The translations under genes and the position numbers were made by a program. Below, piece by piece: positions 5,061-23,608 of a DNA stretch of 64,000 nt (its first letter is position 1; every line of letters starts with the position of its first letter). Origin of the DNA: Rhodoferax sp. PAMC 29310 (lineage in GTDB: Bacteria; Pseudomonadota; Gammaproteobacteria; Burkholderiales; Burkholderiaceae_C); the NCBI RefSeq assembly GCF_017948265.1, contig NZ_CP072852.1, positions 4,526,001 to 4,590,000 on the forward strand, in the 5' to 3' direction. The notes below the pieces were generated by a model. The model did no database searches. It worked only from the letters and a program-made list of their open reading frames with translations, and was not told the DNA's origin.

Positions 5061-5155
5061 GGGGCGATTGTCCGGGAAACCGATGGGGCAGGGCTCCGAG
5101 AGTCACTTCCCCTCGAAACAAGGTCGGTGAATCAGGGCCTGCACGTCAAGTACTT

Positions 5156-5210
5156 CGTTATTCAAAAAAACAGATAAACATATTATTTAATATTTTTTTT
5201 GGAAATAACG
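5156..5210 (+). promoter_or_regulatory. AT-rich dyad upstream of the sulfite exporter gene (possible CysB-type region)
   Basis: A strikingly AT-rich stretch is bracketed by perfect inverted arms CGTTATT (5156-5162) and AATAACG (5204-5210), with A-rich and T-rich flanks. Inside is a second dyad, ATATTA-TT-TAATAT (5180-5193). It lies 50-100 bases before the TauE/SafE start at 5262. In related bacteria such GTTATT...AATAAC architectures precede sulfur-assimilation genes, so a sulfur regulator such as CysB is plausible; the regulator is inference. Confidence 0.5.
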
Positions 5211-5261
5211 AGTGACCTCTACCATGCGCCAATTCGTTCAACTTCTATCAAAGCGGCCATC

Positions 5262-6220
5262 ATGCATCCCCACCCCAATCGTCCTGAACCTGTTGGATTC
5301 ACCACCAGCGAAGCGCCGCGAAATGCGGTATTTAGTTCCCGCCTTTTCCGCTATTGGTTGTATTTCCAGGTTAGCTGGGTCACGCTGGCCGTGCTCTGGC
5401 TGAGCACGAGTCATCACCTTCCCGCCTTGACGGGCTATTCGGGCGAGACGCCGGCCTGGGTGTCTGGTTTGTTGAGCGCCATGTTGGTGGGCATGGCGGC
5501 CCAATTGGTTGACGGCGCGCTGGGCATGGCTTACGGCGTGACGGCGACCACATTTTTGATTGCCAACGGCGCTTCTCCTGCGGCTGCCAGCGCCAGCGTT
5601 CACATTGCCGAGGTGTTCACCACCGGTGCGTCCGGCTGGTCTCATTACTCCTTGGGCAATGTCAGCAAGAAGCTGTTTTGGCGCTTACTCGCACCGGGCT
5701 TGGTTGGCGTCACTGCGGGCGCATTGCTGTTGTTCCACATCGATGGCGCCATGATCAAACCCTATATCTCCGCCTATTTGCTGGGCATGGGCGGGTGGAT
5801 TTTGTACCGCGCTTTCGTCCTTTACCGGCGCAAGAAGGTCATCGTTCCCGCGAAGAACCCCCCGGTGGCGGCATTGGCCATCACCGGTGGTTTTCTGGAC
5901 GCTGTGGGCGGCGGCGGCTGGGTGCCCGTGGTCACCACGAATCTGATTGGCACGGGTCAAGACCCCCGCACCACCATTGGCACCGTCAACTCCGCCGAGT
6001 TCTTTTTTTCAGTGGCTGGCGCCGGAGTATTTACCTTGTTTGTGGGGATCACGGACTGGTACCTGAGTACCTGATTGCAGGCTTGGTGCTGGGAGGACTG
6101 GGGGCGGCGCCTTTGGCGGCCCAGGTGACCTCACGCCTCTCCGCTCGCAGTCTTTTGCTGTTGGTGGGGGTCTTGATCAGTCTGGTTTCCGCGTTCAATT
6201 TGTACAAGGCGTTGCTGTAG
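5262..6220 (+). pseudogene. TauE/SafE-family sulfite exporter, frameshifted by an 8-bp tandem duplication
   Basis: The first frame encodes a multi-helix TauE/SafE protein (AQLVDGALGMAYGVTATTFL, then a conserved AITGGFLDAVGGGGWVPVVT repeat) but stops at 6072-6074. The remaining conserved C-terminus (IAGLVLGGLGAAPLAAQVTS) continues in another frame to 6220. The break is the tandem repeat GTACCTGA at 6059-6066 and 6067-6074. Removing one copy restores ITDWYLIAGLVLGG exactly as expected for the family. The open frame extends back to a TTG at 5199, but that codon lies inside the regulatory dyad, so the ATG at 5262 is preferred. It is either an inactivated gene, a reversible slippage switch, or a sequencing artefact. 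Confidence 0.85.
6059..6074 (+). repeat. 8-bp perfect tandem duplication (GTACCTGA x2)
   Basis: Two adjacent copies of GTACCTGA occupy 6059-6066 and 6067-6074. The second copy supplies the premature TGA. The length of eight shifts the frame by two, accounting fully for the frame change in the TauE/SafE gene. Confidence 0.95.
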
Positions 6221-6330
6221 CGCACACGTCGAGCCAGTTCACTAGAAAATCCCCTCTCCACCCCACCTGTCGGCAAAGCAGCGGCTGTCGGCGAGGTGGA
6301 CCAGACACCGTTCAAGCGCCCACCACACAT

Positions 6331-8019
6331 TCAGCGACGGCCTGAAATTGGGGTCGTCCGGTCGATGATGGCGGCCACATTGATGCCGCGGGGCAGGGTG
6401 CCGTAGTTGTGGTGCCCCATTTGGGTCAGGCGGGAGTTGCAAAACGTATCACTGATGAACGCCGGGCTGTGTCGCACCAGCAGGGCGCCCTGCAAGGCCA
6501 GGGCCATGCGGTCCACGATGTCGCGGGCGCGGTATTCAAGCGCCTGGACCTCTTTGAAATCTTTAACGAGGGCGTTCACGTATTGATCCAACGTAGCGTT
6601 CCCCCCTCGAGCCTGGTTGACTTCGGCGAAAAACGCCTCGGCCACCTCAGGTGTTTTAGACAGGGCGCGTAGCACATCCAGACACTCCACATTGCCACTG
6701 CCTTCCCAAATGGCATTGACGGGCGCTTCCCGGTACAGGCGCGGCATCATGCTGTCTTCCATGAAGCCGCTGCCACCAATGCATTCCATGGCTTCATAAG
6801 CATGGTTGGGGGTTCGCTTGCATATCCAGTACTTGCCCACCGCAGTGACCAGTCGCACCAAAAGGTCTTCGTGCTGGTCGGTGCGGTGGTCCATGGCGCG
6901 GGCGATGCGCAGGGTGAGTGTCATGGCGGCTTCGCTCTCCAGCGCCAGGTCGGCCAACACGTTTTGCATCAGGGGTTGTTGGTTGAGCACCTTTCCAAAG
7001 GCTGATCGCACCGAGCAGTGGTGCAGCGCCTGTGACGCGGCCATGCGCATGCCGGCACTGGAGCCAATCATGCAGTCGAAACGGGTCATGCTGACCATTT
7101 CGATGATGGTGCGCACGCCACGGCCTTCGTCACCCACCATCCAGGCCATCGCACCGCGAAGTTTTGTTTCGCTGGACGCGTTGGACGCATTGCCCATCTT
7201 CTTCTTGAGCCGCAGTACCTGCATCGGGTTTTTGCTGCCGTCCGGGCGCCATCGGGGTAGCAAAAAGCAGGACAAGCCACCGGGTGCTTGCGCCAGCACC
7301 AAAAAGGCGTCGCACATGGGGGCGGACACAAAGTACTTGTGTCCTACCAGTTCGTACATCTGGCCGGGGCCGCCGCCGCCCATGGGGATGGCACGGGTGG
7401 TGTTGGCCCTGACATCCGATCCACCCTGTTTCTCCGTCATGGCCATGCCGATGGTGACGCCTAGTTTCTGTTCAGCCGGGATGTTGCGTGGGTCATAAAC
7501 GCGTGCGGTGACTTTGGGCACCCAGGTGGCGGCCAGATCGGCTTGCAGGCGCAGGCTGGGTACGGCGGCAAAGGTCATGGTGATGGGGCAACCGTGCCCG
7601 GCCTCGACCTGCGTGTGCATATAGGTTTTGGCGGCGCGGGCCACATGGGCGCCGGTCCGTGGTTCGGTCCACGGGGACGCGTGCAGCCCCTGCTCAATGC
7701 TGGTGGTCATCAGTCGGTGATAGGCCGGGTGAAATTTGACCAGATCAACGCGTGTGCCAAAACGGTCATGTGTGTCTAGCTCTGGCGTGTATTTGTTGGC
7801 CAGCTGGCCCTGCTCCATGTACTCGGCAGTCCCGATCATTTGTCCAAAATTGTTCAGCTCGACTTGTGCCCAGCTGGCGCCTTCGCGAACAACCGCTTCG
7901 GACAAGGCGACATCTTGTGTGTAGAGGTTGTAGTCACACAGCTCGGTTGCAAGGTTGCTGAGTTCATGGGTGTCGGCCTGGGAGGCCCCCGTTTGAATGG
8001 GTGAATTTTCAGGGGTCAT
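6331..8019 (-). CDS. AidB-type acyl-CoA dehydrogenase family protein
   Basis: The 562-residue protein is clearly longer than ordinary acyl-CoA dehydrogenases and fits the AidB / isovaleryl-CoA-dehydrogenase-like branch. Seen motifs include GMAMTEKQGGSDVRANTT (FAD and substrate region, near residue 200), a GRGVRTIIEMVSMTRFDCMIGS helix near 300, and CIGGSGFMEDSMMPRLYREA with APVNAIWEGSGNV near 440, which carries the glutamate of the WEGSGN loop. AidB in E. coli is a flavoprotein of the adaptive response to alkylation that binds DNA; many homologues may simply be dehydrogenases. It stands alone, convergent with the broken sulfite exporter. Confidence 0.88.
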   Translation of the reverse strand: MTPENSPIQTGASQADTHELSNLATELCDYNLYTQDVALSEAVVREGASWAQVELNNFGQMIGTAEYMEQGQLANKYTPELDTHDRFGTRVDLVKFHPAYHRLMTTSIEQGLHASPWTEPRTGAHVARAAKTYMHTQVEAGHGCPITMTFAAVPSLRLQADLAATWVPKVTARVYDPRNIPAEQKLGVTIGMAMTEKQGGSDVRANTTRAIPMGGGGPGQMYELVGHKYFVSAPMCDAFLVLAQAPGGLSCFLLPRWRPDGSKNPMQVLRLKKKMGNASNASSETKLRGAMAWMVGDEGRGVRTIIEMVSMTRFDCMIGSSAGMRMAASQALHHCSVRSAFGKVLNQQPLMQNVLADLALESEAAMTLTLRIARAMDHRTDQHEDLLVRLVTAVGKYWICKRTPNHAYEAMECIGGSGFMEDSMMPRLYREAPVNAIWEGSGNVECLDVLRALSKTPEVAEAFFAEVNQARGGNATLDQYVNALVKDFKEVQALEYRARDIVDRMALALQGALLVRHSPAFISDTFCNSRLTQMGHHNYGTLPRGINVAAIIDRTTPISGRR

Positions 8020-8185
8020 GGTGGTGTCTCCAGATTGATTCGGGATTGTCCCTTGCGTGCTGGCGTGGTCAAGTCACACAGGGGCAGAGTGACAGTGCAT
8101 CTGGAACTCAGGGTAAGTGGGGCAGAAAATCTCAGGGTTACCCCTCGGTGCCACAATGGCGCCTGTTCAAAATAACGGTAATTTG

Positions 8186-9442
8186 ATGCAAATTCCCTAC
8201 GAGCTTATCCTTGGCTGGCGTTACACGCGGGCCGGTCGCGCTACCCGGCGCAATGGTTTTATTTCCTTTATCTCCGGGGTGTCCATGCTGGGCATTGCCT
8301 TGGGCGTGGCCGCGCTCATCATCGTGTTGAGCGTGATGAACGGGTTTCAGAAAGAGGTGCGGGACCGCATGCTCAGCGTGGTGTCGCACATCGAGATCTA
8401 CGCCCCTTATGGTGCGGCCTTGCCCGATCTGGCGCGTACCCTGGCTGAAACGCGGTCAAACCCCCAGGTTATTGGTGCTGCACCTTTTATAGCGGCTCAG
8501 GCACTGCTGGCGAGGGGTGAGGACATGAAAGGCACCATTGTTCGGGGCATTGACCCGGCCTTGGAGCCTGAGGTGACCGACCTGGCGGGTGAGTTGAAAA
8601 ACACCGCGCTAACCCGCTTGATTCCGGGCGAATTCGGTGTGGTGCTGGGCGGCGAGCTGGCCCGCTCGCTCGGCGTGCGTGAAGGCGACAAGGTCACGCT
8701 GGTGGCGCCCAGCGGCCAGGTTACGCCGGCGGGTGTGGTGCCCCGCCTCAAGCAAATGACGGTGGTGGGCACGTTTGACTCTGGCCACTATGAATACGAC
8801 TCTGCACTGGTGCTGATGCATGTGGACGATGCTGCCCGCATCTTCCGCCTGGAAGGGCCCAGCGGCGTGCGACTCAAGCTGCAAGACCTGCATCAGGCCC
8901 GCGCGGTGGCAGCGGAGTTGGCCAAGACCTTGACTGGTGACCTGCTGATTCGCGACTGGACGCGCCAGAACCGCACCTGGTTTGCCGCAGTTCAGCTGGA
9001 AAAACGCATGATGTTCATCATCCTGACGCTGATCGTGGCCGTGGCCGCGTTCAATTTGGTCTCCACCCTGGTGATGACGGTGACGGACAAACGGGCCGAC
9101 ATTGCCATTTTGCGCACCTTGGGCGCTAGCCCCCAGAGCATCATGGGTATCTTTGTGGTGCAAGGCGCCATGGTGGGTGTGATTGGCACACTGGCTGGCT
9201 TGGTGCTGGGCTTGGGTGTGGCCTTCAACATTGATGTGCTGGTGCCCGCGCTGGAGCACTTCCTGGGGGCGACGTTTCTGCCCAAAGATGTTTACCTCAT
9301 CAGCAGCATGCCCAGCGACCCCCAGCAGTCCGACATATTGCCGGTGGCCATCATTTCTTTGGTATTGGCTTTTCTGGCCACCTTGTACCCGAGCTGGCGC
9401 GCCAGCCGGGTGAACCCGGCGGAGGCCTTGCGTTATGAATAA
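8186..9442 (+). CDS. lolC: Lipoprotein-releasing ABC system permease LolC/LolE
   Basis: The 418-residue inner-membrane protein begins [18 protein letters not shown], then has a first transmembrane helix ([20 protein letters not shown]), a periplasmic domain of about 200 residues and three C-terminal helices of an FtsX domain ending [16 protein letters not shown]. With LolD it extracts lipoproteins from the inner membrane and hands them to LolA. The frame is open to 8117, but the ATG at 8186 matches the family N-terminus. It overlaps lolD by eight bases. Only one LolC/E-type gene is present here, so the complex may be a LolF homodimer type. Confidence 0.93.
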
Positions 9443-10175
9443 TCGTGTCCCCACCCCGGACGCATCTTCTGCGGTGCGGTCTGCGCTGCCCAAGCCAGGC
9501 GTCGTCTTGAGCGCGCGAGGTTTGACCAAACGCTTCACTGAAGGACGGCTGGATGTCACGGTCCTGCAGGGTGTCGACCTCGATGTGCATGCGGGCGAAA
9601 CTCTGGCCATCGTGGGCGCCTCGGGCTCTGGCAAAAGCACCTTGTTGCACCTGATGGGCGGGCTGGAGGCGCCGACAACCGGCAGTGTGCTTCTGAATGG
9701 TGCCGACCTGGCCCACCAAAGCGCCACCGAACAGGGGCGCTTGCGCAATCAGTACCTGGGGTTTGTGTACCAGTTTCACCATCTGCTACCGGAATTCAGC
9801 GCGCTGGACAACGTGGCGATGCCGCTGTGGATTCGGCGCATGGCTCCCGAAGAAGCCGCCCAGCAGGCCAGCAAAATGTTGGAAAGTGTTGGGCTTCAAG
9901 ACCGGTTGCACCATCGCCCTGCCGAGCTGTCGGGTGGAGAGCGTCAGCGGGTGGCCATTGCCCGGGCACTGGTGACGCGCCCGGCCTGTGTCTTGGCCGA
10001 CGAGCCCACGGGCAACCTGGACCGCAGTACCGCCAACGGTGTTTTTGAATTGATGATGGGGCTGGCTCGCACGCAGGGCACGGCGTTTATTGTGGTGACG
10101 CACGACGAGGCCCTGGCGGCGCGTTGTGGGCGTCAACTGCGGTTGGTGCAGGGCCAACTGGCCGGCACTTTGTGA
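9435..10175 (+). CDS. lolD: Lipoprotein-releasing system ATP-binding protein LolD
   Basis: This 246-residue ABC ATPase has Walker [11 protein letters not shown] near residue 57, the LolD-type [18 protein letters not shown]-loop region near 110, the signature [15 protein letters not shown] near 158, Walker [13 protein letters not shown] and a switch histidine in VVTHDE. The QFHHLLPEF segment is characteristic of LolD and distinguishes it from MacB- or FtsE-type ATPases. The N-terminus carries about 20 extra residues before ARGLTKRF. It overlaps the permease gene, forming the two-gene lol operon. Confidence 0.95.
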
Positions 10176-12779: not shown

Positions 12780-13649
12780 TCAGCTTGAGGGCGGTGCGTC
12801 CGATGGCTTGGCGCCGCGCAACAGGGTGAGCGCCAGCAGGGCAGACGCCACCATCAAAAACAGACTGACGGCGTTCAGAACCGGTGTGGCGCCTTCTCGC
12901 ATGCGGCCATACATCATCACCGTAAGCGGCGAGTCCGAGCCGACCAGCATTAAGGTGGTGTTGAAGTTCTCGAAAGACATCAGGAACGAAATGGCGGCGG
13001 CGCCAATGAGCGCGGGCTGGAGATAGGGCAGGGTCACGGTGGTCAACACCGCCGCGCGGGATGCGCCCAGGTTGTAGGCAGCCTCTTCCAGCGTGATATC
13101 AAAGCGCTTCAGCCGTGCGGTGATGGTCAACGTGGCAATGGACACGATGTAGGCAAACTGCCCCAGCACCACCAGCGGCAGCCCAGGTCTCAAAAATTCC
13201 AGCTCCCATCCCCACAGGTCGTCGGCCAAGTTCGCAATGCGGCTGGCAAAGGCCAGAATCGAAATGCCCAGAATCACACCGGGAATCACTAAGGGCGCGA
13301 GCATTAGGAGGGACAGTGCCTGCTTACCCCGAAACTGCGTTCGTTCAATCAAAAAGGCATTTGCCGTTCCGACCAGAACGGAGAGCACGGTGACCCAGCA
13401 GGCCACCACCACGCTGGTCCACAAACTGCCCAATAGTGCCGTGTCGGCAAACAGACCCTCTTGACCGGGTGTTGTGCCCAGAAACCACGCCAAGGTGAAG
13501 CCGCGCCAAGGCGGCGCAGGATAGGGCGCATCGTTGAACGCAAAGACCGCCACCACCACGAGCGGCAGGAACAGGAAGGCAAAAAAGATGACGCCGTAAA
13601 TCACCGTGCTGGCGCGTAGCCAAGGGGGGCGGGGCAGGGAGAGGATCAT
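12780..13649 (-). CDS. Polyamine-type ABC transporter permease (PotC-like)
   Basis: The 289-residue inner-membrane protein has six predicted helices and the binding-protein-dependent transport signature DITLEEAAYNLGASRAAVLTT near residue 190, which docks with the ATPase. The start, FFAFLFLPLVVVAVFAFND, is typical of PotC/PotI permeases of the spermidine/putrescine family. It overlaps the PotB-like gene by four bases and is the last gene of the importer unit. The transported compound is inferred from context to be a polyamine or amino alcohol, not known. Confidence 0.9.
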   Translation of the reverse strand: MILSLPRPPWLRASTVIYGVIFFAFLFLPLVVVAVFAFNDAPYPAPPWRGFTLAWFLGTTPGQEGLFADTALLGSLWTSVVVACWVTVLSVLVGTANAFLIERTQFRGKQALSLLMLAPLVIPGVILGISILAFASRIANLADDLWGWELEFLRPGLPLVVLGQFAYIVSIATLTITARLKRFDITLEEAAYNLGASRAAVLTTVTLPYLQPALIGAAAISFLMSFENFNTTLMLVGSDSPLTVMMYGRMREGATPVLNAVSLFLMVASALLALTLLRGAKPSDAPPSS

Positions 13650-14533
13650 GATCGCTGCATCACTTCGCCAAACTTTTGGCCGCTCAGCCTCAATCCCAAC
13701 CAGACAATGGCGGTGCTGAGTCCCAGCAGCAAGAAACCAAACGCGGCGCCTTGCTCCCAGTTAAAGCGGGTGATGAACTGGGTGTAGATTTGCTCGGTGA
13801 ACCACTGCGAATTTTTGCCGCCCAAGAGCGTGGGCGTCAGGTAATTTCCCAGCGTCAGCATGAAGACCACAATGCAGCCCGCCACGATGCCGGGCGCTGC
13901 ATGCGGAATCACAATCTGCCGCAAAATTGACCAGCCATTGCCGCCCAGGTCATACGCCGCCTCGATCAGTGAGTCATCCAGACTCTCCAGCGCGCTGATC
14001 AGCGGGATCACCATGAACAACATGGAGGTGTAGACCAGCCCGACCAGAATGGTGGCATCGTGGTACAGCATTTCCACCGGTGCCGGGGTCACGCCCAAGG
14101 TGACCAGCAAGTCAGGCAAAACACCGGACTCGCGCAGCAAAATCATCCAACCCAGGGTCCGCACGGTCTCACTCACCCAGAATGGAATCAGGCACAGCAC
14201 AAACAATAGCGCTTTGCTGCGGCCCCGCACCAGTTTGGCAATGGTCCAGGCAATGGGGAAGGCCATCAGCAGAGTAATGGCGGTCGCCAATATCGACATG
14301 ACGGCGGTGCGCACAAAGGTGTGCCAGTACAAAGGTTCTTCAATAAAGGTCAGGTACTGCGCAAAGCTGGGTTCGTAGACGCGAGGGGCCACGCGGGCCC
14401 GCAGCGACAGAATCGCCAACTCGACATGGGGCAGCAGAACCAGGCCTGCCAGCCAAACCACTGCTGGGGCCAACAGCAACATCAGGATCAAGCGCGCCTG
14501 AAGTTGGTTCTGGTTCGTCACCTCAGTGCTCAT
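13646..14533 (-). CDS. Polyamine-type ABC transporter permease (PotB-like)
   Basis: The 295-residue protein has six predicted membrane helices, starting LILMLLLAPAVVWLAGLVLL, and the EAA-loop LIEAAYDLGGNGWSILRQI near residue 195. The LRTAVMSILATAIT-like segment and WVSETVRTLGWMILLRESG are common in PotB/PotH permeases. It starts three bases after the ATPase stop and overlaps the next permease, so the four importer genes are tightly packed. Confidence 0.9.
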   Translation of the reverse strand: MSTEVTNQNQLQARLILMLLLAPAVVWLAGLVLLPHVELAILSLRARVAPRVYEPSFAQYLTFIEEPLYWHTFVRTAVMSILATAITLLMAFPIAWTIAKLVRGRSKALLFVLCLIPFWVSETVRTLGWMILLRESGVLPDLLVTLGVTPAPVEMLYHDATILVGLVYTSMLFMVIPLISALESLDDSLIEAAYDLGGNGWSILRQIVIPHAAPGIVAGCIVVFMLTLGNYLTPTLLGGKNSQWFTEQIYTQFITRFNWEQGAAFGFLLLGLSTAIVWLGLRLSGQKFGEVMQRS

Positions 14534-14536
14534 GGT

Positions 14537-15682
14537 TTATGCCGAAGCCTTGGACGCAAAACAAACGGCCCGCTGAGGATCAAATCCAAAGCTCACGGTC
14601 TCACCCACCCGCAAGTCAGACAGGTGGCCGGTCTGGGGCAAAGCAATGCGAAATTCAGTGCGAGATTTCTCTTCATGCAAGAGTACCGCCGAGTTGGCGC
14701 CGTCAAACAGCAAGCTGTCCACCTGCGCCCGGTAATGCGGCAGGCCGGCGTCGGCAAACACCTGGGTGTCGCGTGCCAGGCTGGCAACCTCCGGGCGCAC
14801 AAAGGCTTCAACTTGATCACCTGTTTGAACCTTGCCTGATGCCCGCGTGGTGAGCACCATGCCGTCGTCGCCAGTGACGGTGACCAGGTCCCCGTTCACG
14901 GCCGTAGCGCGGCCTTTCACCTGGTTGTTGGCACCCACAAAGCCGGCGACGAACGGGGTATCGGGTTGGTAGTAAAGCGCCTGAGGCGTTCCCACTTGCT
15001 CGAACCGGCCATGGTTCATGACTGCCACATGGTCAGACAGCACCAGCGCCTCTGATTGGTCGTGGGTGATGTAAACAAAGGTGGTGCCGAAGGCTGCCTG
15101 CAACTGTTTGAGCTCAATCTTCATGTGCTCGCGCAGCTTCAAGTCCAGGGCACCCAGCGGTTCATCCAATAGCAAAAGCGTGGGCTCCAGTACCAGACTG
15201 CGAGCGATGGCCACCCGTTGTTTTTGACCGCCTGAAAGTTGCTCCACGCGCTTGTTCTGCGCGCCGGGCAGGCTGACCCGTTCCAGCATCTCACCCACAC
15301 GCCGCTTGATCTCGTCTGGTGCGACGCCCCGGCGAGCCAAGCCATAGCCCACGTTCTCGCCGACTGACATCATGGGAAAGAGCGCCAGGTGCTGAAACAC
15401 CATGTTCACCGGGCGCCGGTTGGGTGGCACGCCTTTCATGGGCTTGCCGCCAATGCGAATCTCGCCAGAGTCCGGGCTTAAAAAGCCCGCAATCATGCGC
15501 AACAAGGTCGTTTTGCCACATCCAGAAGGGCCAAGAATGGAGAAAAAACTGCCGCGCGCTACGCTAAAAGATAGTTCATCTACCGCCAGAAATCCGCCGT
15601 AGCGCTTGCCCACGCGCACGGCTTCCAGGTCAGGCTGAGTCCCCCCACTCAATGGGGGGGGGGCAGCAATGTCGGAACTCAA
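14537..15682 (-). CDS. Polyamine-type ABC transporter ATP-binding protein (PotA-like)
   Basis: This 381-residue ATPase has Walker A LGPSGCGKTT near residue 52, LSGGQKQRVAIARSL near 148, Walker B LLLLDEPLGALD and the switch YITHDQ, then a TOBE domain (VEAFVRPEVASL onward), as in PotA. The only start matching the reading frame is TTG at 15682, 11 bases after the binding-protein stop, with a weak AAGGCG upstream. Codons 7-10 contain a run of ten C residues followed seven bases later by six Gs, so the 5' end can form a hairpin and is a slippage-prone tract. A later TTG start downstream of the tract is possible. Confidence 0.9.
   Translation of the reverse strand: MSSDIAAPPPLSGGTQPDLEAVRVGKRYGGFLAVDELSFSVARGSFFSILGPSGCGKTTLLRMIAGFLSPDSGEIRIGGKPMKGVPPNRRPVNMVFQHLALFPMMSVGENVGYGLARRGVAPDEIKRRVGEMLERVSLPGAQNKRVEQLSGGQKQRVAIARSLVLEPTLLLLDEPLGALDLKLREHMKIELKQLQAAFGTTFVYITHDQSEALVLSDHVAVMNHGRFEQVGTPQALYYQPDTPFVAGFVGANNQVKGRATAVNGDLVTVTGDDGMVLTTRASGKVQTGDQVEAFVRPEVASLARDTQVFADAGLPHYRAQVDSLLFDGANSAVLLHEEKSRTEFRIALPQTGHLSDLRVGETVSFGFDPQRAVCFASKASA
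15654..15663 (-). repeat. Ten-base homopolymer tract in the 5' end of the PotA-like gene
   Basis: Ten Gs on the plus strand (ten Cs in the gene's sense) encode a proline run. On the plus strand six Cs lie seven bases before the G run, giving a perfect GC hairpin over the start region. A length change of one would shift the frame if translation starts at 15682. Confidence 0.85.
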
Positions 15683-15693
15683 GCCGGGTCGCC

Positions 15694-16761
15694 TTAGTTG
15701 GCGGCCTTGATGCGGTCCAGCACGCGACCTTCAATTTCCTCAATGCCAGCTGGCACAGCGGGGTACCACTTCACGTTTTTCAAGGCGGCTTCGGGGAAGC
15801 TTTCCGCAAACTGGGCTTTGAGCTTGGCATCCATCAACTGGTCAGCACCCTTGGAGGCGGTGAAGTTGCCGGCCGCCGAGGCCACGCGGGCAGCGATCTC
15901 GGGGCGCATGTTGAAGTTGATCCAGGCGTAGGCGCCAGCGTCGTTTTTGCCTTTGGCAGGCAGCGCAAAGGTGTCAATCCAGCCCAGAGCGCCGGACTTT
16001 GGCGCAATGTACTGAAACTCAGGCTTTTCAGAGTTGAGCTTCCAGCCACCCGTGTCCCACATCATGGCACCCACAATTTCACCGGCCCGCATGCCGTTGA
16101 GCAACTGATCCTTGTTGTCCCAGTAAAACTTGATGTTGCCTTTGCAAGCAATCATGGCCTTGCCGACTTCATCCATCAAGGCGCCATAGGCTTTAGGGTC
16201 ACCGTACAACGCAAACGGGTCTTTGCCGGCGGCAAAGGCGAAGGCCAGCAGGGTTGGCCGTTTCAACCGCATGGCGGTCTTTCCCTTGACGTCGGCACGG
16301 CACAAGTCAGGGTAGTCAGCCATTTTGGTGAGTTTGGTGTTCACCACCAAGCCATCAGTGCCCCAGATGTGTGGCAGGCCATAGACTTTGCCTGCCAAAG
16401 TCGTGTTTTTCTTGGTGGCTTCCAGCATGGATGGGATGAATAACTCGGCTTTGAGTTTGCTCAAGTCCATCGGCTTGTAAATGCCGAACTCCTGTTGAGG
16501 GCCAGTGATGCGGTCTTGGGACGGCTGCGCTAGGTCAAAACCTGCACCACCAGTGGCGCGCAACTTGGAAATCATCTTCTCGTTATCAGACAGTGTCACC
16601 TCGACGGTGTAGCCGCTTTCCTTTTCGAACTCGGCCACGATGTCTGCCGGGGCGTAGCCGCCCCAGGTTAGCAATCGGAGTGTTTTTTCCTGCGCCATGG
16701 CGGAGCCCGCCATGGCGAGCGCGACCACGCCTGCGGCGATAAGGGTGAGTTGAGTTTTCAT
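15694..16761 (-). CDS. Polyamine-type ABC transporter substrate-binding protein (PotD/PotF-like)
   Basis: The 355-residue protein starts MKTQLTLIAAGVVALAMAGSAMAQ, a clear Sec signal peptide, followed by KTLRLLTWGGYAPADIVAEFEKES, the typical beginning of extracellular solute-binding family 1 proteins of the PotD/PotF group. The frame is open upstream to 16938, but ATG 16761 gives the signal peptide directly. Also seen are VYGLPHIWGTDGLVVNT and GWIDTFALPAKGKN. It is the first gene of the importer operon and lies behind a promoter-like element shared with the permease gene 5.6 kb away. Ligand is unknown. Confidence 0.92.
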   Translation of the reverse strand: MKTQLTLIAAGVVALAMAGSAMAQEKTLRLLTWGGYAPADIVAEFEKESGYTVEVTLSDNEKMISKLRATGGAGFDLAQPSQDRITGPQQEFGIYKPMDLSKLKAELFIPSMLEATKKNTTLAGKVYGLPHIWGTDGLVVNTKLTKMADYPDLCRADVKGKTAMRLKRPTLLAFAFAAGKDPFALYGDPKAYGALMDEVGKAMIACKGNIKFYWDNKDQLLNGMRAGEIVGAMMWDTGGWKLNSEKPEFQYIAPKSGALGWIDTFALPAKGKNDAGAYAWINFNMRPEIAARVASAAGNFTASKGADQLMDAKLKAQFAESFPEAALKNVKWYPAVPAGIEEIEGRVLDRIKAAN

Positions 16762-16895: not shown

Positions 16896-16937
16896 ATCCT
16901 AGGAACACCTGTTCTTCTTGCCTATCCCAAATCGGCA
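16896..16937 (-). promoter_or_regulatory. Promoter-like element of the importer operon, copy B of a shared motif
   Basis: Read on the minus strand the element is TGCCGATTTGGGA followed by TAGGCA (-35-like, plus-strand 16919-16924), 17 bases, then TAGGAT (-10-like, 16896-16901). Copy A at 22464-22505 has the same blocks at the same spacing. The upstream box overlaps the weak -35, the usual position for an AraC-family activator. It is the only obvious promoter in the 218-base gap before the binding-protein gene. Confidence 0.7.
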
Positions 16938-16979
16938 CATGACTGGTAGAAATAGGCAGGATTTACCCTAGGCCCTGGT

Positions 16980-18353
16980 TCACGGTTGACGCAAATGCCA
17001 GGCCTTGGGTCGGGTAAAGGCTTGAATGCCATAGGTGGACAAGGTCAGCCCTACGCCGGAGTCACCATGGCCGCTCCAGGGCAGACGTGGGCTGACGCGG
17101 TCACAGCAGTTCCAGTACACGGTGCCCGCGTTCACCTGGTCCAACAGGTTTTTCGCACGCGCCTCGTCGCGGGTGAAGATGCCTGCCGTCAAGCCGTAAC
17201 GGGTATCGTTCATCAGCTCCACCGCTTGGGCGTCGCCCGTGACCTTTTGAATCCCGATGATGGGACCAAAACTCTCTTCACGCATGAGGGCCATGTCATG
17301 ACTGACGTCGGCAAACACGGTGGGCTCAAACCAGTTGCCGGGCCCAGGTAGCCGCTTGCCGCCGGTGAGCAGGCGGGCGCCTTTGGCTTTGGCATCGGCC
17401 ACTTGTGCTTCCAGCACGTCAAGCTGCGGCGCGCGGGTGATGGCGCCAATGTAAGTGTCTGCGCTCATGGGGTCGCCCGCTTTGAAGGTCTTTACCGTGG
17501 CCACAAACGCCGAAACAAAGTCGTCGTGAATGGACTCGTGCACATAAATGCGCTCCACCGAGCAGCAGCTCTGGCCCGTGTTGTACATGGCGCCGTCTGC
17601 CAGCGATTCGGCGGCTGTTTTGGGGTTGGCATCTTCGCAGACATACGTGGGGTCTTTGCCCCCCAACTCCAGTTGCACCTTGACCATGCGCGGCCCCAGT
17701 GCTTCCATGATGCGGGCGCCGGTGGCGTGTGAGCCGGTGAAGAACAAGCCGTCAATTTTCTGTGCGAGCAGGGCAGCGCCCACATCGCCACCGCCAATCA
17801 AGGTGATGAAGGCGTGCTCTGGCACACCCGCCGCGTGCAGCAGGCGGGCAATCGCCAAGCCGGTTTGCGCCGCGTACTCTGACGGCTTGTAAAGCACCGC
17901 GTTGCCCGTGAGCAGGGCGGGAATGAATACGTTTCCACCCACAAACCAAGGGTAATTCCAGGCCGAGATGTTGGCAATCACGCCCAATGGCGTGTGTTCA
18001 ATTTGCTCAGTCATGCTGCCGTCAATGAAGACGGTTTCCGTGGCCTGTTCGTCATCCGCCTCTTCGATAAAGAAATCGATTCGGGCAATGAGGCCGTTAA
18101 GCTCGTTTCGCGACATCTGGATCGGCTTGCCGGTCTCACGTGTCATTGTGGCGGCCAGTTCATCCAGCTCGGCCAGCACACCGGCTTTGAAGCGTTCGAT
18201 ACAAGCTTGGCGTTTGGCCATGGGCGTGGCGGCCCACGGCTTTTGGGCTGCCCGGGCGAGCGTTGCTTTTGCGGCGACTGAAGTTGCGTCGTCCGCAGGA
18301 AGTTCGGCGATCAATGCGCCCGTGGCAGGGTTGTGAATGGCAAGTTGATTCAT
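16980..18353 (-). CDS. Aldehyde dehydrogenase (NAD(P)-dependent, putative gamma-glutamyl aldehyde oxidation)
   Basis: The 457-residue enzyme has the ALDH core: NISAWNYPWFVGGNVFIPAL near residue 125, FTGSHATG near 200, the general-base glutamate in VQLELGGKDPTYV near 225 and the catalytic cysteine in YNTGQSCCSVERIYVHESI near 260. The upstream frame reaches 18440, but MNQLAIHNPATG at 18353 matches the family start and removes an overlap with the dehydrogenase gene. It follows the iron alcohol dehydrogenase by 17 bases. In context it would oxidise the aldehyde made by that enzyme, possibly gamma-glutamyl-aminoacetaldehyde to gamma-glutamylglycine; this is inference. Confidence 0.9.
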   Translation of the reverse strand: MNQLAIHNPATGALIAELPADDATSVAAKATLARAAQKPWAATPMAKRQACIERFKAGVLAELDELAATMTRETGKPIQMSRNELNGLIARIDFFIEEADDEQATETVFIDGSMTEQIEHTPLGVIANISAWNYPWFVGGNVFIPALLTGNAVLYKPSEYAAQTGLAIARLLHAAGVPEHAFITLIGGGDVGAALLAQKIDGLFFTGSHATGARIMEALGPRMVKVQLELGGKDPTYVCEDANPKTAAESLADGAMYNTGQSCCSVERIYVHESIHDDFVSAFVATVKTFKAGDPMSADTYIGAITRAPQLDVLEAQVADAKAKGARLLTGGKRLPGPGNWFEPTVFADVSHDMALMREESFGPIIGIQKVTGDAQAVELMNDTRYGLTAGIFTRDEARAKNLLDQVNAGTVYWNCCDRVSPRLPWSGHGDSGVGLTLSTYGIQAFTRPKAWHLRQP

Positions 18354-18370
18354 GGCAGGGTCTTTCTGGC

Positions 18371-19504
18371 TCACAGGGCCGCTTTGAAGAGGGCGTCGAA
18401 ATCGGCCGCAGTACAGGGGCGTGGATTTGTCTGATGACAAATGTCGGCGGTGGCAATTTCAATCAAGCGGGGAAAATGCTCAGGTTTCACGCCATGGGCC
18501 GCCAAACCGCCGGTGATGCCAATGCTTTGTTTGAGTTGCTTCAACCAAGGCACAAAGGCCGCACCACCGCCGGGCACCTTGCAGACGTGGGCGAGTTCAT
18601 CGAACTTCTCGGGTGCGGACTCCATGTTCCACGCCAGTACCGTGTCAATCATCAAGGCGTTGGCCAAGCCGTGGTGCAAGTCGCAGACAGCGCCCAAGGC
18701 GTGGGCGCAGGAGTGCACCGCGCCCAGGTCTTTCTGGAACGCAATGGCGCCCATCATGGAGGCCATCATCATGTCGGAGCGAGCCTTCAAGTCGCCCGGG
18801 TTTTGAACGGCAGTTAACAGCGCCGCAGCGGCAATACGTGTGCCCTCCAAAGCGATGCCGTCGCACAAGGGGTGGTAGGCGGGTGACAGGTAGCTCTCAA
18901 TGTTGTGGGTCAGCGCATCCATGCCGGTGGCGGCCGTCACGTGGGACGGCAGGCCTACTGTCAGTTCCGGGTCGGCAAAGACGGTTTTGGCGAGAATTTT
19001 GGCGCTGAACACCACCCGCTTCAAATGGGTGTCGTTCTCGCTGACCACGCTAGAGCGCCCCACCTCGGAGCCGGTGCCCGAGGTGGTAGGCAAGGCGATG
19101 AAGTAGGGCAGCTCGTGGGTAATGGGCCGCATTTGTGGGTGGTCCCATACGTATTCCAGAATATCGCCTTCGTGCGTAGCGGCTACGCCCACCACTTTGG
19201 CCACATCCAGCGCTGCGCCACCCCCAAAACCAATCACGCAATCGGCCTGATGCGCCTTGTAGGCAGCGGCGCCATCCATGACCTGGCTGCAGGTGGGGTT
19301 GCCAAAGACGCCGGTAAATACCGCCACGTCCAGTCCGTCAAGATGTGAAACAAACTCGGTCAACACCGGCAAGGCACCCAGCGCCCGGTCGGTCACGATC
19401 AAGGGGCGCTTGCAGCCGGCTTCGATCAAATGTTTTGCTACTAATTTGCGAGCGCCTGCGCCAAATTTGATGGGGGTAGGGAAGGAGAAGTTGGTAATAG
19501 TCAT
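18371..19504 (-). CDS. Iron-containing alcohol dehydrogenase
   Basis: The 377-residue protein is a group III alcohol dehydrogenase. It shows the nucleotide-binding GFGGGAALDVAKV near residue 93, LPTTSGTGSEVGRSSV near 138 and metal ligands in ATGMDALTHNIESY (Asp, His near 190-195), VHSCAHALG near 260 and DLHHGLANA near 273. It lies six bases after the glutamine-synthetase-like gene and before the aldehyde dehydrogenase. An alcohol-to-aldehyde step in a polyamine pathway is unusual, since diamines need an oxidase or aminotransferase. It points instead to an amino-alcohol substrate such as ethanolamine. Confidence 0.92.
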   Translation of the reverse strand: MTITNFSFPTPIKFGAGARKLVAKHLIEAGCKRPLIVTDRALGALPVLTEFVSHLDGLDVAVFTGVFGNPTCSQVMDGAAAYKAHQADCVIGFGGGAALDVAKVVGVAATHEGDILEYVWDHPQMRPITHELPYFIALPTTSGTGSEVGRSSVVSENDTHLKRVVFSAKILAKTVFADPELTVGLPSHVTAATGMDALTHNIESYLSPAYHPLCDGIALEGTRIAAAALLTAVQNPGDLKARSDMMMASMMGAIAFQKDLGAVHSCAHALGAVCDLHHGLANALMIDTVLAWNMESAPEKFDELAHVCKVPGGGAAFVPWLKQLKQSIGITGGLAAHGVKPEHFPRLIEIATADICHQTNPRPCTAADFDALFKAAL

Positions 19505-19510
19505 GGTCGT

Positions 19511-20899
19511 TCAGATGATTTCAAAGTAACGTTTCATTTCATAGTCTGTCACAGCGTCCAGCCACTGCCGCCATTCCCAGTCGCGGGTCGCCGCGAAATG
19601 GTCGACAAAACCGTCACCCAGCCAGTCTCTGGCAATGGTGGATTTCTCGAAAATTCGGGTGGTCTCAATCAAGGTGCGCGGCGCCCGTGCAATGTGCTCG
19701 CCGCCCACATTGGTCCCAGTAATCGGGGGGGCTGTCAGCTTCAACCCCTTCTCCACACCGTCCAAACCGGCGGCAATCACCGCCGCCATGGCCAGGTAGG
19801 GATTCACGTCAGCGCCGGGGCAGCGTGTCTCCAGCCGGGTGGCCTTGGGGCTTCCGGCAATGACCCGAAAACTGGCGGTGCGGTTGTCCACGCCCCAAGT
19901 GGGTTTGACCGGGGCCCAATAGCCGTCCACCAGCCGCTTGTAGCTGTTGATGGTGGGCCACATCATCGGTGCAAACTCCATCAGGCAGGCCACCTGCCCC
20001 GCAAGGTAGCTTTCAAACAGCGGGCTCATCTTGCGCGGGTTCTTGGCGTCAAAAAACAGATTGTTCTTGCCGTCAGACAGACTTTGGTGAATGTGCCCGC
20101 TGCAGCCTGGCAGCTGCTGATGCGGCTTGGCCATGAAGCTGGGCATGATGCCAAAGCCCGCCCCAATCTCTTTGGTGCCCGTTTTGAAAAGAATGGCACG
20201 GTCGGCCTGCTCCAGTGCTTCGCTAAAGCCCAATGCCGCTTCATAGACGCCCGGGCCGGTCTCGGTATGCAGCCCCTCAATCGGCACGCCAAATGCCAGC
20301 ATGTCGTCCATGATGGCATTCAGAAAATCCCGGTTCTGGTTCATGCGCAGCAGCGAATAGCCAAACATGCCCGGTGTGAGCACCTCGGGTCCCACTCCCT
20401 TCTTGGCCGCCCAGCTTTGAGGGGTTTCCAGAAAGTTGAACCACTCAAACTCCATGCCGGTCATGACCTTGAAACCCATTTTTTCGGCACGCTTGAGTAC
20501 CCGTTTCAGGGTCTGGCGGGGGCACTGGGCGTGGGCCGAACCATCGGCGTTGACGAATTCGCTCAAAAAGAAGGGCACATCGTCGTCCCAAGGCACATGG
20601 CGTGCGGTGTTCAGATCAAGCCGGGCCAGTGCGTCCGGAAAGCCGTGCTGCCAGCCGGTGGCCGTGGTGTTGTCATAGGTGACATCCATCATGTCCCAGC
20701 CCAAAACGACATCACAAAAGCCAAAGCCACCGCCGGGTGCCGGCTCGGCGGCGCCCAGAAACTTGTCGCGGTGCAGGTACTTGCCGCGCAGAATGCCATC
20801 AATGTCGCTGACCGCCACCTTGACTTTTTTGGCGTCGGATTGTTTGAACTGGGTCAGTGCGGGGTGTTCGCCCGCTGTTTTTTTCTTTGAGGTCGCCAT
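19511..20899 (-). CDS. Glutamine-synthetase-family gamma-glutamylamide synthetase
   Basis: This 462-residue protein is a catalytic GS fold but not a housekeeping GlnA. It has a GS N-terminal domain with VSDIDGILRGKYL, then EFEWFNF near residue 155, ETGPGVYEAAL near 215, the ATP-site GCSGHIHQSL near 263 and ETRCPGADVNPYLAMAA near 365. This branch includes PuuA, IpuC and GlnA4-type enzymes that join glutamate to polyamines, isopropylamine or ethanolamine. The frame is open to 20968, but ATG 20899 avoids overlap with the permease and has a GGAAAGG element upstream. The amine substrate is inferred from its neighbours. Confidence 0.9.
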   Translation of the reverse strand: MATSKKKTAGEHPALTQFKQSDAKKVKVAVSDIDGILRGKYLHRDKFLGAAEPAPGGGFGFCDVVLGWDMMDVTYDNTTATGWQHGFPDALARLDLNTARHVPWDDDVPFFLSEFVNADGSAHAQCPRQTLKRVLKRAEKMGFKVMTGMEFEWFNFLETPQSWAAKKGVGPEVLTPGMFGYSLLRMNQNRDFLNAIMDDMLAFGVPIEGLHTETGPGVYEAALGFSEALEQADRAILFKTGTKEIGAGFGIMPSFMAKPHQQLPGCSGHIHQSLSDGKNNLFFDAKNPRKMSPLFESYLAGQVACLMEFAPMMWPTINSYKRLVDGYWAPVKPTWGVDNRTASFRVIAGSPKATRLETRCPGADVNPYLAMAAVIAAGLDGVEKGLKLTAPPITGTNVGGEHIARAPRTLIETTRIFEKSTIARDWLGDGFVDHFAATRDWEWRQWLDAVTDYEMKRYFEII

Positions 20900-20918
20900 A
20901 GAGCCTTTCCAGTGACGG

Positions 20919-22418
20919 TTAGAGGACGGGCGCGCCGCTGGCAACGCGTTGGGCCTTGGCGTGGTCAAGGGCGAACTCTTCTTCCGGAGAAAGAATCAGG
21001 CGCTTGCGGCCCACCAGTGCAAAGTAGGCGATGCCCACGCTGAACCAGATGGCCACCCACATCACGCCTTGCTGATAAACCGGGTCCGTCAACTGAAAGT
21101 AAAGGGTGACAGACGCAATCAAAATCGTCAACACCGCGCCCACCACCCCAAACGGGCTGCGGTAAGGCCGTGCCAGCGCGGGAAAGTTCTTGCGCAGCAA
21201 AATGAACGACAGCGCTTGCATGATGTAAGAAAACATAGCGCCAAACACGGCCATGTTCAGCAGCGTACCGCCAATGACGGCTGCGCCCTTGTCCGCCCCC
21301 AGGCTGAACCACAGAATGAACATCACCACCAGGGCCAGAACGGCGCCGGTGATCATGGCAATGTGAGGCGTCTTACGGCTACCGTGGGTCACTGACAAGG
21401 CCGACGGAAAGTAGCCTGCCCGGCTGAGCGAGTAGATTTGGCGCCCCTTGGCGAAGATGATGGTGTGAAAGCTGGCGACCAGCCCGAGTACTGCCACTGT
21501 TGCCAGAGTTTTTGCAATACCGTCACCATAAATGGCTTTGAAACCGTCCAGCAAGGGCTCGCCTGAGGTGCCCAGTTTGTGCGAACCCACGCCGGCCACC
21601 GAGGGGTTGAGCCACAAAATCATGAAGGCCGACAAAATCAGGGTAAATATGCCGGCCAGAATGCCGCGTGGCATGTCCCGCTTGGGGTCCACCGACTCTT
21701 CCGCCGCCAGTGGCAACTGCTCAATCGCCAAAAACAACCACACCGCAAACGGCAGGCATGCCAGTACACCCGCCAGTCCCATCGGCAGGAACGGGCCGTG
21801 GCCTTCGGGCAAGGCGATCCCGCCTTCGCCCACGTTCATCGCCCACTTGGCGAAATCAATAGAGGGCAGGGCGCTGAACCAGAACACCACCAGGCAAGAC
21901 AGCGCCAGCAGCGTCACGATCAAGGTCACCTTGAACGACAACTCCACGCCCACGATATTGAGACTCACAAACAAAATGTAAAACCCGATCCACCACAGCG
22001 GCAGCGTCTCTGGCGATGTGCCAAAAATACCCGCCATATAGCTGCTGATGAAATAAACGATGACCGCCGGCGTCAGCACATACTCCACGTTTTCAGCCAG
22101 CCCGGTGACAAAGCCACCCCACTGACCCATGGCCGTGCGGGCGAAGGAATAGGCGCCGCCGGTGTGGGGCAACGCCGGAGACATTTCAGCCAACGAAAAG
22201 GTCAGCCCCAGGTACATGATGGCGATGATGATGGTCGCCAAAAACATGCTGCCCCAGCCATTGGCCAGTCCCAGGTTCCAGCCGGAGAAGTGGCCGGAAA
22301 TCACCGCCCCTACGCCCAACGCCCACAGGGACCAAACCCCGGCGTACCGACGCAGCCCTCGTTTGTCAAAGTAACTCTGGTCAACTTTGGTGTATTGCAC
22401 ACCGGACGAATCGCTCAT
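20919..22418 (-). CDS. APC-family ethanolamine-type permease
   Basis: The 499-residue protein has about twelve predicted helices. The segment WALGVGAVISGHFSGWNLGL near residue 34 strongly resembles the ethanolamine permease (Eat) group of the amino acid/polyamine/organocation superfamily. Also seen are PHTGGAYSFARTAMG near 80 and FLAIEQLPLAAEESVDPKRD near 235. It opens the catabolic operon, 19 bases before the GS-like gene. A promoter-like element lies about 46 bases upstream, between it and the divergent AraC regulator. Substrate specificity is a family-level inference. Confidence 0.88.
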   Translation of the reverse strand: MSDSSGVQYTKVDQSYFDKRGLRRYAGVWSLWALGVGAVISGHFSGWNLGLANGWGSMFLATIIIAIMYLGLTFSLAEMSPALPHTGGAYSFARTAMGQWGGFVTGLAENVEYVLTPAVIVYFISSYMAGIFGTSPETLPLWWIGFYILFVSLNIVGVELSFKVTLIVTLLALSCLVVFWFSALPSIDFAKWAMNVGEGGIALPEGHGPFLPMGLAGVLACLPFAVWLFLAIEQLPLAAEESVDPKRDMPRGILAGIFTLILSAFMILWLNPSVAGVGSHKLGTSGEPLLDGFKAIYGDGIAKTLATVAVLGLVASFHTIIFAKGRQIYSLSRAGYFPSALSVTHGSRKTPHIAMITGAVLALVVMFILWFSLGADKGAAVIGGTLLNMAVFGAMFSYIMQALSFILLRKNFPALARPYRSPFGVVGAVLTILIASVTLYFQLTDPVYQQGVMWVAIWFSVGIAYFALVGRKRLILSPEEEFALDHAKAQRVASGAPVL

Positions 22419-22463
22419 GTGGGGCTCCTGGATGTTGTTGGAGATCAGGGAAAGACCGAGTGC

Positions 22464-22505
22464 ATCCTAGGAAGTGGCTAACCGGCTGACTATCCAAAAT
22501 CGGCA
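22464..22505 (-). promoter_or_regulatory. Promoter-like element of the permease-GS-dehydrogenase operon, copy A of a shared motif
   Basis: On the minus strand the element reads TGCCGATTTTGGA, then TAGTCA (-35-like, 22487-22492), a 17-base spacer, and TAGGAT (-10-like, 22464-22469). It shares the upstream box, the weak -35, the -10 and the exact spacing with 16896-16937. It sits between the permease start and the divergent regulator gene. The likely activator is the adjacent EutR-like protein. Confidence 0.72.
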
Positions 22506-22603: not shown

Positions 22604-23608
22604 ATGCCTGCTCAATCCGCGAACGCGATGTCCTTGGGTGCCCAGTACCTTGGACTGGGTGGGCGAGGCGTGTCTGCGTTGGCCAGCGCCACCTTTGCAG
22701 ACGTCGAAGAGCAAGCCTGCGCATTGACAGGCTGGAATCAAGACTATTTGCAACTCAGCGCGGGTGCGTTTCAGGGCGAAATCTGTCAGGTTGAAGGCGC
22801 CTGTATCAAGCTCTTTATTGAGCGTGTGCAGCAGTCGCTGTTTCAAACTGGCGTTCTACCGCGCAACGTGCTGGCGGTTGGCATTCCGTTAAGCGCCAGT
22901 GGTGCTGGCATGTTCTGCGGCCAGGCTTGTGCGTCTGACGCGTTTCATGTGTTTTCCGGCTCGTCCGGATTCGAGTTCAGAACCTCTCAGCAGCACACCA
23001 TGCTTGGCATTGAATTGCAGTTGGGCGATGGGTGGCTGAGCGACGTAGGGCCAGGCGTTGAGTCCGGTAATCACCGGGACTTACCCGCACAGGCCGGCGC
23101 CTTGCCAATGGGCCCTGCTGCGCTGGCCGAACTCAAAACCTATTTGCTGGCCTTGCTCCAGTCCGCGCAAACCGCACCTGATGTGTTGTCCAGCCCGGCC
23201 GTGGTCAACACCGTGGCCGATTTTTTGCTGGACCACATGGCCCGAAACTCGGTGGGCGCTGGCTTGACTGATGAGTTACCGGTTCACCAAAAGCTGGTGC
23301 AACGGGCCTGCGCTTTGGTCCATGAAACGCTGGAGCAGGCCCCCACCGTGGCGCAACTCTGCATCGACTTGGGCGTGAGCCGGCGCACCCTTCAAAACGG
23401 TTTTCAGCGCACCCTGAATGTCAGCCCGCTGAACTACCTCAAAGCCGTGCGCCTGGGCCAAGCGCGCCGGGCACTCAAGCAGGTGCGCTCCGTGACCGAG
23501 GCCGCAACGGCCTTTGGCTTCTGGCACTTTGGTCACTTCTCACAAGACTACCTGACCATGTTTGGCGAGCGCCCCTCAGACACCTTGAGGCGCCACCAAA
23601 GCGACTAA
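22604..23608 (+). CDS. EutR-like AraC-family transcriptional regulator
   Basis: The 334-residue protein has a variable N-terminal sensing region and a C-terminal AraC helix-turn-helix domain from about residue 235: TVAQLCIDLGVSRRTLQNGF, then ATAFGFWHFGHFSQDY and FGERPSDTLRRH. The second helix region resembles E. coli EutR, the ethanolamine operon activator (GFWHLGQFATDY as I recall it). It is transcribed away from the permease operon and is the best candidate to bind the shared boxes at 22464-22505 and 16896-16937. The effector is not known; an amino alcohol or its gamma-glutamyl derivative is plausible. Confidence 0.88.
   Translation: MPAQSANAMSLGAQYLGLGGRGVSALASATFADVEEQACALTGWNQDYLQLSAGAFQGEICQVEGACIKLFIERVQQSLFQTGVLPRNVLAVGIPLSASGAGMFCGQACASDAFHVFSGSSGFEFRTSQQHTMLGIELQLGDGWLSDVGPGVESGNHRDLPAQAGALPMGPAALAELKTYLLALLQSAQTAPDVLSSPAVVNTVADFLLDHMARNSVGAGLTDELPVHQKLVQRACALVHETLEQAPTVAQLCIDLGVSRRTLQNGFQRTLNVSPLNYLKAVRLGQARRALKQVRSVTEAATAFGFWHFGHFSQDYLTMFGERPSDTLRRHQSD

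Follow-up and report, generated by a model that had tools for sequence, protein, structure and literature searches.

Genes and shared elements in the window

The window, a 64000 bp stretch of the Rhodoferax sp. PAMC 29310 genome (RefSeq accession number NZ_CP072852.1; coordinates 4526001 to 4590000), includes a catabolic operon and an ABC importer operon on the minus strand, and the gene for an AraC/EutR-like regulator is divergent from the first of these:

22604..23608, plus strand, AraC/EutR-like regulator (HTH_18), the presumed activator, divergent from the permease operon
20919..22418, minus strand, Eat-like APC permease, first gene of the catabolic operon (TIGR00908, 353.7 bits, under the cut-off of 381.75)
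19511..20968, minus strand, glutamine-synthetase-like (GS-like) enzyme, presumed from homology only to be a gamma-glutamyl-amino-alcohol synthetase (below all curated cut-offs)
18371..19504, minus strand, iron-containing alcohol dehydrogenase
16980..18440, minus strand, aldehyde dehydrogenase
15694..16761, minus strand, PotD/PotF-like substrate-binding protein, first gene of the importer operon
14537..15682, minus strand, ABC transporter ATPase
13646..14533, minus strand, ABC permease, PotB/PotH-like
12780..13649, minus strand, ABC permease, PotC/PotI-like

A shared element lies upstream of each operon, and both sites read TGCCGATTT(T/G)GGATAG-N16-TTCCTAGGAT on the minus strand. The importer copy is TGCCGATTTGGGATAG-N16-TTCCTAGGATTG (minus strand from 16937), with its box 176 bp upstream of the start codon of the PotD/PotF-like gene, and the permease operon copy is TGCCGATTTTGGATAG-N16-TTCCTAGGATGC (minus strand from 22505), with its box 87 bp upstream of the Eat-like permease gene. 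The CCTAGGAA block is found at 16898-16905 and at 22466-22473, with 16 bases between the blocks in either copy. The following features were assigned:

22490..22505, minus strand, predicted operator of the permease-GS-dehydrogenase operon (box A TGCC, 22502-22505; box B GGAT, 22492-22495)
22464..22469, minus strand, -10-like hexamer TAGGAT of the permease operon, beginning at +36 as counted from the first base of the box (start site predicted)
16922..16937, minus strand, predicted operator of the importer operon (box A TGCC, 16934-16937; box B GGAT, 16924-16927)
16896..16901, minus strand, -10-like hexamer TAGGAT of the importer promoter
16943..16958, minus strand, TGCCTATTTCTACCAG, 21 bp upstream of the importer box, a non-conserved match to box A alone and possibly a weak second half-site

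Direct reading of the sequence thus reproduced all coordinates, blocks and spacings given in a first-pass annotation of this DNA, which had also proposed that the element should not occur at random positions in the genome. With no mismatch, TGCCGATTTNGGATAG was found at just these two places in the window, and 3 extra places appeared at 3 mismatches. When the whole genome (one contig of 4,593,249 bases) was searched with the 40-bp pattern allowing up to 3 mismatches, exactly two places were found, both in the window, and the reversed control gave 0 matches. The same two places alone were returned by a less stringent search for the box together with the -10, in which at most 1 mismatch was allowed. 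A terminator scan of both element regions found none.

Conservation of the box at related loci

A profile of 24 homologues (picked from 120 listed) gave the best 80 of 112 relatives' loci, and genome searches added more. Records with the regulator gene divergent from a permease or GS gene of the type found here, the window counted in, formed a core set, from which L006 and L010 were left out as second copies of L011 and L005, respectively. The box is present in all 19 core records in the form TGCC-N-A-N4-GGAT, with TGCC, A and GGAT (9 columns) invariant throughout, and columns outside the box average 0.23 bits, the highest background column reaching 1.37. Four divergent loci were added later (L124-L127), and the exact box was found in three of them; the fourth, L125 (GS kind), has TACC in place of TGCC (TACCGAAATGGGAT). 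The elements of L126 and L127 duplicate those of L021 and L023.

The first-pass annotation had suggested a scan upstream of orthologous permease, GS and importer genes, and the expectation held for permease and GS loci (19/19 divergent loci, then 3/4 further) but not for the importer promoters, nor for genome G033, where the permease is present without the element in a different neighbourhood. The importer element occurs in 2/14 orthologous importer promoters, those of the window and of genome G040 (L004, same gene), L089 having been left out as a second copy of the G040 record. The other 12 have no clear element, with a 2-mismatch resemblance in L098 and L099. The element was therefore rejected as a general feature of the importer, and the importer copy is lineage-specific. 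At a Rhodoferax lacus locus (L061, position 4344), a second box precedes an APC permease gene instead. A separate motif, (G/A)GCCGAATTGGGAT-CCGACCCC, recurs in the G033 locus (L118; positions 13063, 13307, 17249, 17493 and 18658) and is perhaps a REP-type repeat.

Among 40 more distant loci, which include the core-group member L029, TGC[CA]-N-A-N4-GGAT was found in 22 within the 480 bp examined, with 0.15 in shuffles. The form TGC[CA]-N-A-N4-GGAT[AT] gave 54 matches in 66 whole loci (1.21 Mb), where 2.3 are expected for uniform bases. Matches in the three bins of identity to the regulator numbered 26, 44 and 6, with permuted-pattern means of 1.9, 5.6 and 2.2, respectively; because single permuted patterns reached 13, 30 and 13, composition plays a part, and position counts for more as evidence. 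Of ten proteins scanned for families, nine are encoded downstream of a box, the tenth being the hydrolase treated below. Three of the nine are APC permeases, one of them an Eat permease, and another three are Gcw_chp (TorF-type) porins; the rest are an amidase, a short-chain dehydrogenase and a DUF1329 protein. In L057, two boxes lie upstream of a TorF-type porin gene that precedes the permease gene.

A second box (0-1 mismatch) was seen 89-109 bp upstream of the proximal one in 5/19 core loci (L016, L017, L019, L029 and L022). It sits at the 5' end of the regulator gene, where autoregulation or looping is possible.

A strict box plus -10 pattern was also sought in 250 genomes of the family, and 4 places in 3 genomes were found, with 0 for the reversed control. 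Two are those in the window, one (G127) adjoins the gene for an AraC relative, and one is in G307. The regulator profile matched in 32 of the 250 genomes and the strict pattern occurs in 2 of these, so the strict pattern misses most genomes that hold a relative of the regulator. Among the 30 of 41 profile-match loci given, the exact GGAT box is present in 8 of the 29 besides that of the window, and in 6 of the 7 best-scoring ones. At the G307 place (L119:1501), an exact box and -10 were found in a genome without a relative of the regulator, and none of the 13 query proteins is encoded in the vicinity.

Promoter geometry and comparison with Pm

Spacing was counted over 58 non-redundant sites, from 79. 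Counted from the first base of the box, a TAnnnT sequence begins at +36 in 22 sites and at +37 in 7, making 29/58 with the fixed -10 distance expected of an AraC/XylS-type site, and every other offset from 16 to 59 was represented by 0-3 sites. The two blocks expected of such a site, about one helical turn apart, are found as TGCC-N6-GGAT in 19/19 core records, L125 with its TACC being a later addition. The downstream block that had been proposed as a shared part of the element is present in both window copies, but CCTAGG is not itself a conserved unit; relatives carry a varied -10-like hexamer at about the same distance (TAGGAT, TACGAT, TACCAT, CACAAT and others).

The XylS site is given as TGCA-N6-GGNTA, occurring twice, in extracts from PMC4514859, and as box A TGCA and box B GGTA in extracts from PMC5481539. 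In Pm of pWW0, half-sites TGCAAGAAGCGGATA and TGCAAAAAATGGCTA are spaced 21 bp apart, and TAGGCT starts exactly 36 bp after the proximal half-site, TGCA-N6-GGCTA. The half-site found here, TGCC-N6-GGAT(A), has the same form and the same +36 spacing to the -10, and the promoter thus resembles the proximal half of Pm. The C-terminal domain of XylS is also related to that of the window regulator (31% identity over 135 residues). However, box A ends in A at Pm and in C here, and Pm has two half-sites, whereas 0/58 sites here score at least 5 of 8 for a tandem half-site at -21. A conserved Pm-style second half-site 21 bp upstream was accordingly ruled out, and the arrangement is not that of XylS at Pm proper.

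Regulators associated with the box

The presence of the box anywhere in the locus follows identity to the window regulator, being 18/18 at 45% or more, 38/40 at 36-45% and 6/22 below that (L084, in which the gene is cut, was assigned by hand to the 36-45% bin). Many of these regulators are named ethanolamine operon activators in one annotation source. The recognition helices of the 22604-23608 protein we take to be SRRTLQ and GFWHFGHF, with residues assigned from family knowledge. Residue 311, in the second helix, was read from the alignment and the box was sought near the regulator or permease gene. A GGAT box was found in 58/90 loci with His at this residue, 0/12 with Gln, 0/4 with Ala, 0/1 with Tyr and 1/4 with Arg, hence 1/21 for the non-His regulators; L126-L128 in these counts repeat other loci. 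Because the relatives share ancestry, Fisher values for the identity and residue-311 tables are not probabilities.

No exact GGAT box was found in the stretch examined in 32 of the 90 His-type loci. Eleven of these have a first helix of the SPRKL type, for which the GGAT box is present in 0/11 loci, and in L032, L033 and L036-L038 the box is further off. In L132, L146, L149 and L150, neither an SPRKL helix nor a farther box explains its absence. Gln-type loci carry TGCC-R-A-N3-TTGAT in L117, L136, L145 and L080 (4/12), CCGAT in L133 and L144 (2/12) and GCGAT in L137 (1/12), and 5/12 are without a TGCC-R-A box of the kinds sought. The rule that Gln means TT is therefore too simple.

Interpretation

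The element, its spacing, its conservation and its tie to a regulator clade and to helix residues are seen directly in the sequences, and from them we infer binding and activation by the regulator, together with the start site, inducer and substrate. It is highly likely that each copy is an activator-dependent promoter (class II AraC-type) containing the predicted site of the 22604-23608 protein, without the tandem half-site of XylS. As the element recurs before uptake and breakdown genes beside one regulator family in many bacteria, the shared switch is very probably the site at which this regulator turns on the use of ethanolamine-like compounds. The 22604-23608 protein would bind the half-site TGCC-N6-GGAT(AG) with one helix-turn-helix (HTH) motif per block, at about -48 to -33, overlapping a poor -35 (TAGTCA/TAGGCA), and RNA polymerase would be brought to a TAnnAT -10 lying a set distance away, an arrangement comparable to the proximal XylS half-site at Pm. 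Via one copy it would control the catabolic operon (permease, GS-like ligase, iron-containing alcohol dehydrogenase and aldehyde dehydrogenase), and the second copy would put the polyamine-type ABC importer under the same regulator in this lineage. Ethanolamine, or an amino alcohol related to it, is the probable inducer. The first-pass annotation proposed activation by the product of the neighbouring EutR-like gene, and this gains support from the way the box tracks an AraC clade and two recognition helices.

It is very improbable that another protein reads the box as its operator, or that the AraC-like protein acts there as a repressor. The second box seen in five core loci, where the regulator gene begins, could mean repression or looping, but the position of the proximal box over a poor -35 fits activation, and box B varies with the residue in the second helix. 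An alternative (ECF-type) sigma factor promoter, in which the box is the -35 and TAGGAT the -10, would account for two conserved blocks at a fixed distance, and no sigma-70-type promoter was above the scan threshold in either element region (shuffle mean 0.2). However, the box is 14-16 bp long, its blocks are separated by one helical turn, which suits AraC proteins with two HTH motifs, and it tracks the AraC clade and the recognition residues. No sigma-factor family was found among 20 window proteins scanned (for one of them, no family at all reached the threshold), and this reading is very improbable.

Recent duplication of a promoter stretch without function could explain why both copies in G040 share GGCAAGC and TTCATAC and the two in the window share CCTAGG. 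This is scarcely credible, as it is contradicted by the orthologous loci, where the box is kept across many records and the flanks have diverged, and the N16 middle is identical between copies at 4/16 positions in the window and 10/16 in G040. The earlier proposal of function rather than recent duplication agrees with these data.

A promoter of the AraC/XylS-activated type is of an ordinary kind, and what appears to be new is an operator for a known kind of regulator, well supported by comparison. No operator for these ethanolamine operon activator-like regulators was found in the literature in a search confined to open-licence papers. A defined site with a fixed promoter geometry would make regulons predictable from sequence, and a specificity rule for the reading of the box is suggested as a directly testable idea. 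The distribution points as well to a recruitment of transporters into the regulon that differs by lineage, the ABC importer here and an APC permease in Rhodoferax lacus.

Comparison with known ethanolamine systems

A gamma-glutamyl route has been proposed for ethanolamine in Streptomyces and in Phaeobacter, according to extracts from PMC6529630 and PMC10132767, respectively. As in that pathway (GlnA4 of Streptomyces coelicolor; Phaeobacter MED193), a GS-like ligase is clustered here with alcohol and aldehyde dehydrogenases, and some Streptomyces clusters are described as also holding a permease, as here, whereas the Phaeobacter cluster has a TRAP transporter and an adjoining regulator named RpiR. 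The window operon differs from the pathway in having no hydrolase gene, which is present in relatives. In L009, L010 and L015, the two dehydrogenase genes are separated by a gene for Peptidase_C26, the expected hydrolase; none was found between those of the window (18371-18440), and the lone match in the genome itself is partial and 42% identical. The window ligase is presumed from its sequence to act on an amino alcohol, e.g. ethanolamine. The catabolic operon is patchy, with the permease found in 3/89 genomes of the genus (E 1e-150 or better).

A second EutR-like gene in the same genome (L117, coordinates 3176500-3196000; 5010-9849 within the locus) is divergent from genes for an Eat permease, EutB and EutC, each of which scores higher than its curated cut-off. 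Its element is TGCCAAAATTTGAT, with a TTGAT-type box and TACATT at +36. In view of this second locus, there may be two routes for ethanolamine in this genome, or the GS operon may serve another amino alcohol. Against the EutR family NF007522 (curated cut-off 319), the window regulator scored 132.3 bits and the L117 paralogue 238, both under the cut-off. Ethanolamine ammonia-lyase genes are not found beside the window regulator, which has the GS-type operon, whereas EutB and EutC are encoded beside the paralogue.

EutR, the eut activator of E. coli and Salmonella, resembles the window regulator over its full length (33% over 320 residues for the E. coli protein) and has the same SRRTLQ helix. 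However, E. coli EutR has Gln and not His in the second helix, which is of the glutamine type, box B at its candidate site is TGTT and not GGAT, and its annotated target is the microcompartment eut operon. The candidate, TGCCGAATTTTGTT, lies upstream of eutS in E. coli K-12 (promoter stretch TGCCGAATTTTG), with two mismatches to the GGAT box and CACGAT at +36. Scores of the consensus against shuffles were at most 0.025 in all 13 regions and 0.004 for eutS, values that are partly circular because the consensus was formulated with the E. coli site and several of the others already in view. A search for EutS in 187 genomes of the class, meant to extend the E. coli site to other species, gave no match, and no EutR operator was seen in extracts from an ethanolamine-use review (PMC5821096) and from a Salmonella EutR paper (PMC4643982). 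The eutS site is possibly the operator of E. coli EutR, a lead from one site that supplies a candidate for this regulator.

A broader reading, put forward tentatively and with rather more doubt than confidence, is that sites resembling TGCC-R-A-N4-(GG, TT or CC)-GAT could be the operator of the whole EutR branch, from the Burkholderiales to eutS of E. coli K-12. Box A would be read by the nearly constant SRRxLQ helix and box B would be set largely by one second-helix residue (GG where it is His; TT or some other pair where it is Gln). A single half-site would suffice, unlike the tandem pair of XylS, aided in some species by a further site ~100 bp upstream, where the regulator gene begins.
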